Shown here: one piece after another, positions 28,994 through 32,822 of the stretch
Layout: each line of letters begins with the position of its first letter
Position numbering within the stretch: position 1 is the stretch's first letter
Assembly: GCF_026898115.1 (NCBI RefSeq)
Contig: NZ_CP114036.1
Coordinates: 6,566,001 to 6,630,000 of the forward strand
From: Streptomyces sp. S465
GTDB taxonomy: Bacteria; Actinomycetota; Actinomycetes; Streptomycetales; Streptomycetaceae
DNA: 64,000 nucleotides
Direction of reading: 5' to 3'
Made by a program: the position numbers and the translations under genes
Notes under the pieces: generated by a model
The model's database searches: none
What the model saw: only the letters and a program-made list of their open reading frames with translations
What the model was told of the DNA's origin: nothing

Positions 28994-29290
28994 ATGCCTG
29001 GCATCACGCGCGAGGAGGTCGCCCACCTCGCCCGGCTGGCGCGTCTGGAGCTGAAGGCCGAAGAGCTCGACCACTTCGCCGGACAGCTGGACGACATCAT
29101 CGGCGCGGTCGCCCGCGTCTCCGAGGTCGCCGACCAAGACGTTCCGCCGACCTCTCACCCGCTGCCGCTGACCAACGTCATGCGCTCGGACGAGGTCCGT
29201 CCGTCCCTGACCCCGCAGCAGGCGCTGGCCTGCGCCCCGGCCCAGGAGCAGCAGCGTTTCAAGGTGCCGCAGATCCTGGGGGAGGAGTGA
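28994..29290 (+). CDS. gatC: Asp-tRNA(Asn)/Glu-tRNA(Gln) amidotransferase subunit C
   Basis: GatC is the small subunit that holds GatA and GatB together in the complex converting Glu-tRNA(Gln) (and Asp-tRNA(Asn)) to the amide. At 98 residues it has the family start [17 protein letters not shown] and the middle [18 protein letters not shown], and the C-terminal VPQILGEE wraps the partner subunit. It overlaps gatA by four bases (GTGA), so the two are translationally coupled. Confidence 0.95.
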
Positions 29291-30789
29291 CCACCGTGAC
29301 CGATCTGACCAGGCTCACCGCGGCCGAGATCGCCGCCAGGATCGCCTCCGGCGAGGTCACCGCCGTCGAGGTGACCGAGGCGCACCTGGCCCGTATCGAG
29401 GCCGTCGACGAGAAGGTGCACGCCTTCCTGCACGTGGACCGTGAGGGGGCGCTCGCCCAGGCGCGCGCCGTCGACGAGAAGCGGGAGCGCGGTGAGGAGC
29501 TGGGCCCGCTGGCCGGCGTTCCGCTCGCGCTGAAGGACATCTTCACCACCAAGGGGATCCCGACCACGGTCGGCTCCAAGATCCTCGAAGGGTGGATCCC
29601 GCCGTACGACGCGACGCTCACCAAGCGGCTGCGCGACGCGGACGTGGTCGTCCTCGGCAAGACCAACATGGACGAGTTCGCCATGGGGTCCTCGACCGAG
29701 AACAGCGCCTTCGGCCCCACCGGGAACCCCTGGGACCTCACCCGTATCCCCGGCGGCTCCGGCGGCGGCTCCTCCGCCTCGCTGGCCTCCTTCCAGGCCC
29801 CGCTCGCCATCGGCACCGACACCGGCGGCTCGATCCGCCAGCCGGCCGCCGTCACCGGCACGGTCGGGGTCAAGCCGACGTACGGCGCGGTCTCCCGCTA
29901 CGGCATGGTGGCCTTCTCCTCCTCGCTCGACCAGGGCGGCCCCTGCGCCCGTACCGTGCTGGACGCGGCGCTGCTCCACGAGGTGATCGCCGGGCACGAC
30001 CCGCTGGACTCCACCTCCATCGACGCGCCGGTCCCGGCGGTCGTCGAGGCCGCCCGCAACGGCAGTGTCCAGGGCATGCGCGTCGGTGTCGTCAAGGAGT
30101 TCGCGGGCGAGGGCTACCAGGCCGGTGTCATGCAGCGCTTCAACGAGTCGGTGGAGCTGCTGCGGGAGCTGGGCGCCGAGATCGTGGAGCTCTCCTGTCC
30201 GTCCTTCGACAAGGCGCTGGCCGCGTACTACCTGATCGCGCCGTCCGAGTGCTCCTCCAACCTGGCCCGCTTCGACGCCATGCGCTACGGCCTGCGGACC
30301 GGCGACGACGGCACGAAGTCCGCGGAGGAGGTCACCGCGCTCACCCGCGCGGAGGGCTTCGGCCCCGAGGTCAAGCGCCGGATCATGCTCGGCACCTACG
30401 CGCTCAGCTCCGGCTACTACGACGCGTACTACGGCTCCGCGCAGAAGGTCCGCACGTTGATCAAGCGTGACTTCGAGAAGGCGTTCGAGCAGGTCGACGT
30501 GGTGGTCTCGCCGACCACCCCGACCACCGCCTTCCCGATCGGCGAGCGCGCCGACGACCCGATGGCGATGTATCTGGCCGACCTCTGCACGATTCCCGCG
30601 AACCTCGCGGGGAACGCGGCCATGTCACTGCCCTGCGGTCTGGCGCCGGAGGACGGTCTGCCGGTCGGACTGCAGATCATCGCCCCCGCCATGGCCGACG
30701 ACCGGCTCTACAAGGTCGGTGCCGCGGTCGAGGCCGCGCTCACCGCCAAGTGGGGCCACCCGCTGCTTGAGGAGGCACCGTCACTGTGA
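29287..30789 (+). CDS. gatA: Glutamyl-tRNA(Gln) amidotransferase subunit A
   Basis: GatA is the glutaminase subunit and feeds ammonia to GatB. The 500-residue amidase-signature protein has the Ser-cisSer-Lys triad: Lys in LALKDIF (K83), Ser in [11 protein letters not shown] (S158) and Ser in DTGGSIRQP (S182). The GTG at 29287 overlaps gatC. Its stop overlaps the GTG of the first of three 31-codon ORFs in a 92-bp tandem repeat, an unusual feature inside this operon. gatB follows after the repeat and one small gene. Confidence 0.96.
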
Positions 30790-30881
30790 GCGACGCGCGC
30801 GCGGCCACCGGGCCGCAGATGATGTCGGAAGCCGCACCTCTGCGCCGCGCGGGCGGAGAAGCGAACGGAGAGACCCTGTGA
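30786..30881 (+). CDS. 31-residue mini-ORF, repeat copy 1
   Basis: GTG start, 31 codons, TGA stop. It begins [13 protein letters not shown] and ends [12 protein letters not shown]. It overlaps the gatA stop and the next mini-ORF start, each as GTGA. Its ribosome site would be the end of gatA. It is hydrophilic, with no known domain. It may be translated by coupling, but it could equally be only a by-product of repeat expansion. Confidence 0.35.
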
Positions 30882-30973
30882 GCGACGCGCGCGCGGCCAC
30901 CGGGCCGCAGATGATGTCGGAAGCCGCACCTCTGCGCCGCGCGGGCGGAGAAGCGAACGGAGAGACCCTGTGA
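30878..30973 (+). CDS. 31-residue mini-ORF, repeat copy 2
   Basis: Identical in sequence to copy 1, with GGAGAG seven bases before the GTG. It overlaps both neighbours by four bases (GTGA). No function can be assigned. Confidence 0.35.
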   Translation: MSDARAATGPQMMSEAAPLRRAGGEANGETL

Positions 30974-31065
30974 GCGACGCGCGCGCGGCCACCGGGCCGC
31001 AGATGACGTCGGAAGCCGCACCTCTGCGCCGCGCGGGCGGAGAAGCGAACGGAGAGACGCTGTGA
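30970..31065 (+). CDS. 31-residue mini-ORF, repeat copy 3
   Basis: Same as copies 1 and 2 except Met13 becomes Thr; a second base change is silent (ACC to ACG). The stop overlaps the GTG start of the 79-residue gene as GTGA, so ribosomes leaving this ORF could restart on that gene. Confidence 0.35.
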   Translation: MSDARAATGPQMTSEAAPLRRAGGEANGETL

Positions 31066-31301
31066 GTGCGATCAAGAAGGCCAAGGGCTTCAAGAAGTCC
31101 AAGCCCGGCACCTACCTGTCCATCGCGACGTCGCTGTTCGGCGCGGTCAGCGTGGCCAAGCAGGTCAAGAAGGCCCGACTCGAGAACGACAAGCTACAGC
31201 TGGCCGACGCGGTGGTCTCGGCCGCCGCCATCGTCACCGGCGTCGCCCTGCTCGTCCGCGAGCTCAAGCGCATGGGCGACGACGACGTCCTCGCGGACTG
31301 A
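31062..31301 (+). CDS. Small basic membrane-associated protein of the gat operon
   Basis: A 79-residue protein of unknown function. It begins MSAIKKAKGFKKSKPGTYLS (strongly basic), with a mildly hydrophobic stretch SIATSLFGAVSVA, a Lys/Glu-rich middle, a hydrophobic helix ADAVVSAAAIVTGVALLV and an acidic end. One or two short membrane helices are likely. The GTG at 31062 has GGAGAG before it, supplied by repeat copy 3. It is conserved, as I recall, between gatA and gatB in Streptomyces, suggesting a real gene co-expressed with the amidotransferase. Confidence 0.75.
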   Translation: MSAIKKAKGFKKSKPGTYLSIATSLFGAVSVAKQVKKARLENDKLQLADAVVSAAAIVTGVALLVRELKRMGDDDVLAD

Positions 31302-31316
31302 GAGGTTAGTTTTTCC

Positions 31317-32822
31317 GTGACCGTCACTGAACTGGTGTCGTACGAGGACGCCCTCGCCGCCTACGACCCCGTGATGGGGCTCGAGGTGCATGTCGAGCTC
31401 GGCACCAAGACCAAGATGTTCTGCGGGTGTGCCACCACGCTGGGCGCCGAGCCCAACGCGCAGACCTGCCCCACCTGCCTCGGCCTGCCCGGCTCGCTGC
31501 CGGTGGTCAACGCGACCGGCGTCGAGTCCGCCATCAAGATCGGACTCGCGCTGAACTGCGAGATCGCCGAATGGTGCCGCTTCGCCCGGAAGAACTACTT
31601 CTATCCGGACATGCCGAAGAACTTCCAGACCTCGCAGTACGACGAGCCGATCGCCTACAACGGCTATCTGGACGTCGAGGTCGACGGGGAGGTCTTCCGC
31701 GTCGAGATCGAGCGCGCCCACATGGAGGAGGACACCGGCAAGTCCACCCACGTGGGCGGCGCGACCGGCCGTATCCACGGTGCCTCGCACTCCCTCCTCG
31801 ACTACAACCGGGCCGGTATCCCGCTGATCGAGATCGTCACCAAGCCGATCGTCGGCGCCGGGGACAAGGCCCCGGAGGTCGCCAAGGCCTACGTGACCGA
31901 GCTGCGCGAGCTCATCAAGGCGCTCGGAGTCTCCGAGGCGCGCATGGAGATGGGCCAGATGCGCTGCGATGTGAACCTGTCGCTGCGCCCGCAGGGCGCC
32001 GAGAAGTTCGGCACCCGCTCCGAGACCAAGAACGTCAACTCGCTGCGGTCGGTCGAGCGGGCGGTGCGCTTCGAGATCCAGCGCCACGCCGCGGTGCTGA
32101 GCGGCGGCGGCACGATCATCCAGGAGACCCGTCACTTCCACGAGGAGGACGGCTCCACGACCTCCGGCCGGGTCAAGGAGGAGGCCGAGGACTACCGCTA
32201 CTTCCCCGAGCCGGACCTGGTGCCGATCGCCCCCTCCCGGGCGTGGGTGGAGGAGCTGCGCGCCGGGCTCCCGGAGCTGCCGCGGGTGCGCCGCAAGCGG
32301 CTGCGCGAGGAGTGGGGCCTGTCCCGGCACGAGATGCAGTCGGTGCTCAACGCGGGCGCGATCGACCTGATCACCGCCACCATCGACGAGGGTGCCCCGG
32401 CCGACCAGGCCCGTAAGTGGTGGATGGGCGAGCTGGCCCGCCGCGCCAACGAGGACGGTGTGGAGCTCGCCTCGCTGCCGATCACTCCGGCGCAGGTCGC
32501 CCGGGTGTGCGCGCTGGTCAAGGAGGGTTCGCTCAACGACAAGCTGGCCCGTCAGACGATCGAGGGCGTCCTCGCGGGCGAGGGCGACCCGGACGAGGTC
32601 GTCGCCAAGCGCGGACTGAAGGTCGTCTCGGACGAGGGCGCGCTGGGCGCCGCGGTCGACGAGGCCATCGCGGCCAACGCGGCCATCGCCGACAAGATCC
32701 GCGGCGGCAAGGTCGCGGCGGCGGGTGCGCTGGTCGGCGCGGTCATGAAGGCCACACGCGGCCAGGCGGACGCGGCGCGGGTGCGTGAGCTGATCCTGGA
32801 GAAGCTGGGCGTCGAGGGCTGA
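31317..32822 (+). CDS. gatB: Asp-tRNA(Asn)/Glu-tRNA(Gln) amidotransferase subunit B
   Basis: GatB binds the mischarged tRNA, phosphorylates the acyl group and amidates it. The 501-residue protein has the family start [20 protein letters not shown] with the zinc Cys pair continued in [12 protein letters not shown], the [18 protein letters not shown] segment, and the C-terminal YqeY-like tail domain (about residues 350-500) that holds the tRNA. The GTG at 31317 follows AGAGG. It is the last gene of the gat operon, closed by a strong hairpin. Confidence 0.96.

Follow-up and report, generated by a model that had tools for sequence, protein, structure and literature searches.

Tandem 92-bp repeats in the gatCAB operon of Streptomyces sp. 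S465 probably belong to a dispersed miniature element found at stop/start overlaps of coupled genes

The gatCAB operon of Streptomyces sp. S465 carries three tandem repeats of 92 bp which, with a probability of roughly 0.8, represent one copy type of a miniature element, non-autonomous and dispersed in Streptomycetaceae, that sits at the DTGA of coupled genes and has been locally amplified at gat. This reading draws on sequence comparison, starting from a stretch of 64,000 nucleotides of the S465 genome (hereafter, the window). Tandem Repeats Finder placed a 92-bp array of 3.1 copies with 98% matches at 30784-31066, between gatA and a 79-aa gene; its score of 552 is the highest of any tandem array in the window. 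A repeat search likewise returned three copies spaced by 92 bp, two of them identical and the third changed at two of 99 positions, and both searches thus agree with the first-pass annotation, which had described two identical copies and one with two changes. The parts of the locus are the following.

28994..29290, + strand: gatC, from the ORF list; its TGA overlaps the gatA start (GTGA); NCBIfam TIGR00135, E 2.9e-24
29287..30789, + strand: gatA; its TGA forms the 5' end of unit 1; NCBIfam TIGR00132, E 1.8e-187
30786..30881, + strand: element unit 1, a 31-codon ORF running to DTGA
30794..30805, + strand: 5' arm of the covarying stem in unit 1 (A1 columns 9-20), recurring at +92 and +184
30844..30855, + strand: 3' arm of the same stem (A1 columns 59-70), recurring at +92 and +184
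30867..30872, + strand: Shine-Dalgarno-like GGAGAG of unit 1, read from the sequence, with counterparts at 30959-30964 and 31051-31056
30878..30973, + strand: element unit 2, a 31-codon ORF identical to unit 1
30970..31065, + strand: element unit 3, a 31-codon ORF with two changes relative to units 1 and 2; codon 13 is ACG
31062..31301, + strand: ORF of a conserved small gene (79 aa), starting at the 3' DTGA of unit 3
31317..32822, + strand: gatB; NCBIfam NF004013, E 1.4e-276

Because the unit of 92 bp is one nucleotide short of a multiple of three, each of the three ORFs restarts at a GTGA overlap. CTGTGAG is read at all four junctions (30786, 30878, 30970 and 31062), so the proposed chain of ORFs joined by stop/start overlaps is confirmed. 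GGAGAG had been assigned to every junction and precedes three of the four; the gatA/unit-1 junction follows gatA's own GAGGAGGCACCGTCACT, and it is GAGGAGG, a motif belonging to gatA, that stands before it. The 79-aa gene (31062-31301) was matched by no family of Pfam or NCBIfam at E 0.001. A similar ORF follows gatA in all 24 same-genus relatives examined. A search of 30500-31500 against Rfam gave nothing at E up to 1.

In 23 of the 24 relatives the overlap at gat is plain, ...CTGTGA leading straight into the small gene with no unit between them, and the 24th (G008) has one longer copy. Among the genomes of our set the element is found at gat in ten, as three units in S465 and as a single one in nine others, whose gatA is 85.0-96.5% identical over about 600 bp. 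Comparison of the gatA-gatB gap, which the first-pass annotation had suggested, thus shows a copy number of 0, 1 or 3 among what are different species and not strains of one species. The expansion was also thought to be recent, and it does look so, given that each of the nine other element-bearing genomes has one copy. Codon 13 reads ATG in units 1 and 2, ACG in unit 3 and, by eye, ACN in all nine single gat copies. Units 1 and 2 therefore share a derived base at this codon and look like later duplicates; by this comparison, unit 3 is the unchanged unit at codon 13.

Members of the same family occur far from gat. Searching the S465 genome with the unit produced strong matches at distant places on both strands, and the family model R1, which is a sequence-only model, has 13 matches in this genome at E up to 0.001, the three gat units included. 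The earlier placement of the repeats inside the gatCAB operon is therefore right as to location, with the amendment that the unit is present elsewhere in the same genome as well. The S465 copies share one anatomy: the 5' end reads [AG]TGAG, its TGA being mostly the stop of the upstream frame, and at the 3' end a purine-rich stretch is followed by the DTGA from which the next frame begins. NCBIfam gave names to the following sites: nuoB/nuoC, aroC/aroK and a position upstream of ribBA in S465, and cysC/cysD, argC/argJ and the upstream side of hisB in other genomes. At aroC/aroK of S465 (L006:1507-2127) the element and shikimate kinase (AroK) lie in one open frame, in which the kinase match begins at residue 38. 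The N-terminus of ribBA (L005:1601-1690) weakly matches the unit.

R1 matches 77 of the 199 genomes sampled from the genus at E up to 0.001, leaving 122 with no match, and in the family Streptomycetaceae it matches 49 of 150 genomes and nine of 17 genera at E up to 0.0001; the large genome searches used stricter filters, by which weak matches were lost. In a sample of the phylum 30 of 296 genomes were matched at E up to 0.01, four of them in the genus, and the 26 matches outside it are weak (at most 23.9 bits). Sixteen of these weak out-of-genus loci (L145-L160) were read and none held a clear copy. DTGA does occur within the 16-nt span around the projected start in five of the 16, where one or two would be expected from the DTGA rate of the window, and single remote relatives outside the genus may exist. 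Plasmid and phage collections contained no match at E up to 1e-5.

Including that of the window, 23 arrays were found among all loci; the period is 92 in ten, 89 in eight, 90 in three, 87 in one and 93 in one, frequencies that carry no meaning because many array loci were fetched for their arrays (L246-L265) and the rest by similarity. Streptomyces sp. WAC05374 has one of them, 3x92, and G166 another, with nine 89-bp units (G166:C772). In the three loci with period-90 arrays (L247, L261 and L282) the inner junctions read GCGA or CTGA in place of GTGA, giving in-frame repeated peptides and no chained ORFs. Five other loci (L003, L004, L036, L071 and L094) represent a subtype with an extra in-frame segment of 24 nt and an ORF of 39 codons.

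Junctions were compared in 12 genomes each at cysC/cysD and nuoB/nuoC (G001 had no usable match at either locus and G022 a partial one at cysC/cysD). At nuoB/nuoC S465 is filled and 11 of the 11 relatives compared are bare. Of ten cysC/cysD loci set against the reference L065, seven are bare, one (L227) has no element and an altered junction, G008 is filled, and S465 carries a diverged insertion of ~120 bp that begins like the element. The bare junctions of relatives indicate that the element is an insertion which leaves both neighbours whole.

The preference of the element for stop/start junctions was quantified with a flank-blind search, using a pattern of 31 bases that starts after the TGA. 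Its 29 matches lie in 27 stretches, each with Streptomyces in its title, and DTGA stands directly 5' of all 29 (28 GTGA and one ATGA). As background, only four of the 307 GCGAC sites in the window follow DTGA, and three of those four are the gat units themselves. We also examined copies found with the family model, keeping 164 unique copies from 193 matches, of which 160 had a readable 5' end. We set aside copies lying close to the end of a locus and those whose 5' match began beyond model position 8. Copies with the same sequence over 80 nt and the 40 nt upstream of them were removed, here and in the count of junction classes below, with the result that an array of identical units (the nine at G166:C772, for instance) is under-counted. 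DTGA occupies model position 1 in 151 of the 160 copies and is missing from the 5' end of nine, a count that leans towards DTGA since the model holds DTGA columns and was built from 26 of these copies; the flank-blind count is free of this bias. Among the 151 copies starting with DTGA, the ORF is no longer than 60 codons in 140, where it closes at DTGA in 137 cases and at CTGA in three, and the other 11 run on in frame and are thus fused; with the flank-blind pattern, an ORF closing at DTGA within 60 codons follows 26 of the 29 matches. Upstream, 135 of the 151 copies and 27 of the 29 flank-blind matches have a frame that stays open over 60 codons or as far as the locus reaches, counts that are weak alone, open frames being common by chance in such GC-rich DNA. 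Altogether we distinguish 50 junction classes among 138 sites, and 32 of the classes have a single occurrence; by type, 123 sites are coupled, 12 fused and three of another kind. The DTGA bias may arise from targeting by an enzyme or from survival only at harmless places, either of which fits the data. Of 137 copies, 117 have a Shine-Dalgarno-like motif ahead of the 3' DTGA, compared with a mean of 68 and a maximum of 82 in composition-shuffled sequences; ahead of the 5' start, in host sequence, the motif has a similar frequency (114 of 137).

Inside the element, columns 9-20 pair with columns 59-70. In 26 sequences 94.2% of the cells of this stem are paired, and seven of its 11 pairs are changed on both sides, a figure matched by none of 500 shuffles. 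In a set of 69 distinct copies, 91.3% of the cells are paired (shuffled maximum 87.7) and 36 cells are compensatory, against a shuffled mean of 6.7 and a maximum of 14; the number of pairs with compensatory change in this larger set is again seven, which shuffles also reach (mean 4, maximum 7). The stem contains 18 G-T cells versus seven A-C cells (shuffled means 38 and 28). In 11 copies from eight junction classes, read without gaps, tandem G-A replaces two Watson-Crick pairs. Together with the excess of G-T over A-C, this weakly hints that it is the sense strand that folds, as mRNA or as single-stranded DNA. Calculated folding energy does not distinguish one unit from shuffles (z 0.19 for RNA and -0.19 for DNA), nor the array. 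A candidate second hairpin, pairing A1 columns 16-21 with 26-31, was rejected, one of its six pairs being changed on both sides, a level reached by 212 of 500 shuffles.

That the element reached its junctions by moving is inferred from bare and filled sites. A copy and its nearest neighbour share a junction class 42 times out of 92, compared with a shuffled mean of 5.4 and a maximum of 15, so the pattern reflects vertical descent in part and otherwise a spread to new junctions. Both ends of the element carry TGA; the flanking bases do not fix the length of a duplication, and the cut points at cysC/cysD are ambiguous. The sole mobiliser tested was the Y1 transposase (REP/IS200-type), and it does not co-occur with the element, which is found in 22 of 66 Y1 genomes where 25.5 are expected (p 0.28); the S465 genome has no match to a Y1 transposase. 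Y1 transposase as the mobiliser was therefore rejected.

Among known elements, the closest parallel is MIRU (mycobacterial interspersed repetitive units), the tandem repeats by which tuberculosis strains are typed and for which Supply et al. in 1997 reportedly proposed DTGA as the target. MIRU seems to be mobile according to PMC12548453, which has it inserting at start codons and carrying an internal ORF with a coupling of -4 nt; tandem copies in variable number are described in PMC2734929 and PMC4213456. Like MIRU, the Streptomyces element is a short repeat dispersed over one genome, with the 13 matches in S465 and the 50 junction classes described above; it has a small ORF in the same direction that overlaps both neighbours at DTGA, and its tandem copy number varies at one locus. 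The two differ in the size of their ORFs, mostly 30-32 codons in the Streptomyces element and mostly 16-18 in the mycobacterial ones that were read, and in host family; the comparison of the compensatory stem covers the Streptomyces element alone. Mycobacterial copies were located with what we take to be the MIRU motif, two mismatches being allowed. It is present in 62 of 118 genomes of a genus that appears to be Mycobacterium, and the control columns with the reversed pattern hold none. Inspection of 30 mycobacterial copies showed DTGA within 14 nt on the 5' side in 18, and in 12 of those the ORF closes at DTGA. The 62 of 118 is a wider distribution than that given in PMC4213456, where units at senX3-regX3 are assigned only to M. 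leprae and the tuberculosis complex, perhaps with reference to that locus only. R1 was given 28 of the 30 loci with mycobacterial copies and found no match at E up to 10, and homology to mycobacterial MIRU was rejected on this ground. By analogy, then, the element works like MIRU, and kinship by descent finds no support in its sequence. A GGGGG...CCC / GGGGGAG palindrome is nested in frame in Streptomyces copies (L078 and L080) and also in a mycobacterial MIRU copy (L173), and may be a second tiny dispersed element common to both groups.

Rickettsia palindromic elements (RPE) are likewise small and palindromic, contain an ORF and are fused in frame to genes, according to PMC10969869 and PMC2229807. 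The 12 of 138 sites at which the Streptomyces element is fused in frame resemble them, but with 123 of 138 sites being stop/start junctions the element does not share their location within genes. The literature covered by our search, outside which most subscription papers lie, contains no report of such a family in Streptomyces, and two MITE reviews (PMC10969869 and PMC2229807) gave no hit for the word Streptomyces. The comparison extends to two further kinds of element. MITEs and REP/RAYT elements are small and non-autonomous, have a hairpin and occur in several copies per genome. All of this applies to the Streptomyces element as well. It differs from a MITE in that the window copy has no terminal inverted repeat (30500-31600 contains no inverted pair of 12 nt or longer, and the stem arms are internal), and from REP/RAYT or IS200-type elements in showing no association with Y1 transposase.

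Several other readings of the gat repeats have to be weighed. The first-pass annotation had raised a repeated micropeptide, and a functional 31-residue peptide amplified for dosage would agree with the tendency of the frame to stay open, as the ORF ends at DTGA or continues in frame in 148 of the 151 copies that have DTGA at the 5' end. It would also agree with the net indels, found in 52 copies and multiples of three in 37 of them, many of which belong to arrays and are not independent. Against it, pN/pS is 0.881 when 69 distinct copies of 31 codons are compared in 1,666 pairs, and 0.875 outside the stem, which, the copies being related to each other, is a strong indication and not a formal test. 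Mean diversity at codon positions 1, 2 and 3 is 0.206, 0.276 and 0.230, so that position 2 is at least as variable as position 3. Twelve of the other 15 copies with net indels have lost 2 nt, and those whose translation was read have a shifted reading frame over the 3' half (...RGRRSEQ in place of ...RRAGGEAN), several of these 2-nt-deletion copies still closing at DTGA or running on. The unit matches nothing in Pfam or NCBIfam. A functional peptide thus finds no support and is very improbable.

A structured cis-regulatory RNA, acting through the stem in mRNA and spread by selection rather than as a selfish element, would explain the compensatory changes and is in keeping with the sense-strand hints from G-T cells and tandem G-A. 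We nevertheless regard it as unlikely, since the named host genes have no common function, 122 of the sampled genus genomes lack a match, Rfam has no match at gat, and the stem could equally serve movement as single-stranded DNA. Tuning of the GatA:GatB ratio, in which every overlap costs some re-initiation and three units lower the output of the small protein and GatB, can point to chained overlaps and Shine-Dalgarno-like motifs that are real and to a gat copy number that differs between genomes. It is nonetheless quite unlikely as the reason for the repeats: the same family sits at 50 junction classes, and a junction that is bare in 23 of 24 same-genus relatives speaks of no conserved need there. 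With the family at many unrelated operon junctions, the unit is not a gatCAB device, and the likeliest meaning of the chain of overlaps is harmless entry into an operon rather than regulation of gatCAB; an incidental effect of the units on expression is possible. That the array is an assembly artefact or a chance repeat is scarcely credible in view of its score, of the arrays in other assemblies (3x92 in Streptomyces sp. WAC05374, others with a period of 92 or 89), and of the single copies at the same gat junction in nine other genomes.

For the reading that we prefer, a miniature element of operon junctions, the following scenario can be proposed. The element would have arrived as a mobile element and would insert at, or survive mainly at, the DTGA overlap between translationally coupled genes. 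The sequence itself shows that the left end supplies the upstream gene with its stop and opens a short ORF of the element, that the right end provides a Shine-Dalgarno-like stretch and a DTGA serving as stop of that ORF and start of the next frame, and that compensatory changes keep the internal stem. Ribosomes would cross the mini-ORF by termination-reinitiation, so that an insertion would cost little, and the peptide itself would have no function. In S465 a single insertion at gat would then have been amplified to three tandem units by recombination or slippage.

A broader and decidedly tentative proposal, which we consider more doubtful than not, is that actinobacterial mini-elements in general live by homing to operon junctions. 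MIRU and the family in Streptomycetaceae, and so at least two families that have no detectable relation in sequence, might have converged on recognition of the stop/start overlap, or might share the machinery for it, with the moving sense strand folded as the conserved hairpin and DTGA as the target. Whatever the case, the lifestyle proposed for MIRU, residence in a stop/start overlap of an operon that is still translated, would extend to a second large group of bacteria through an apparently unrelated sequence, and how such elements move and find coupled genes becomes testable in Streptomyces strains that are harmless and kept in laboratories. The element would account for short ORFs between core metabolic genes and offers variable tandem markers. 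The open frame of aroK in S465, which runs through a copy (from a putative start codon), suggests in addition a possible route to new protein N-termini.
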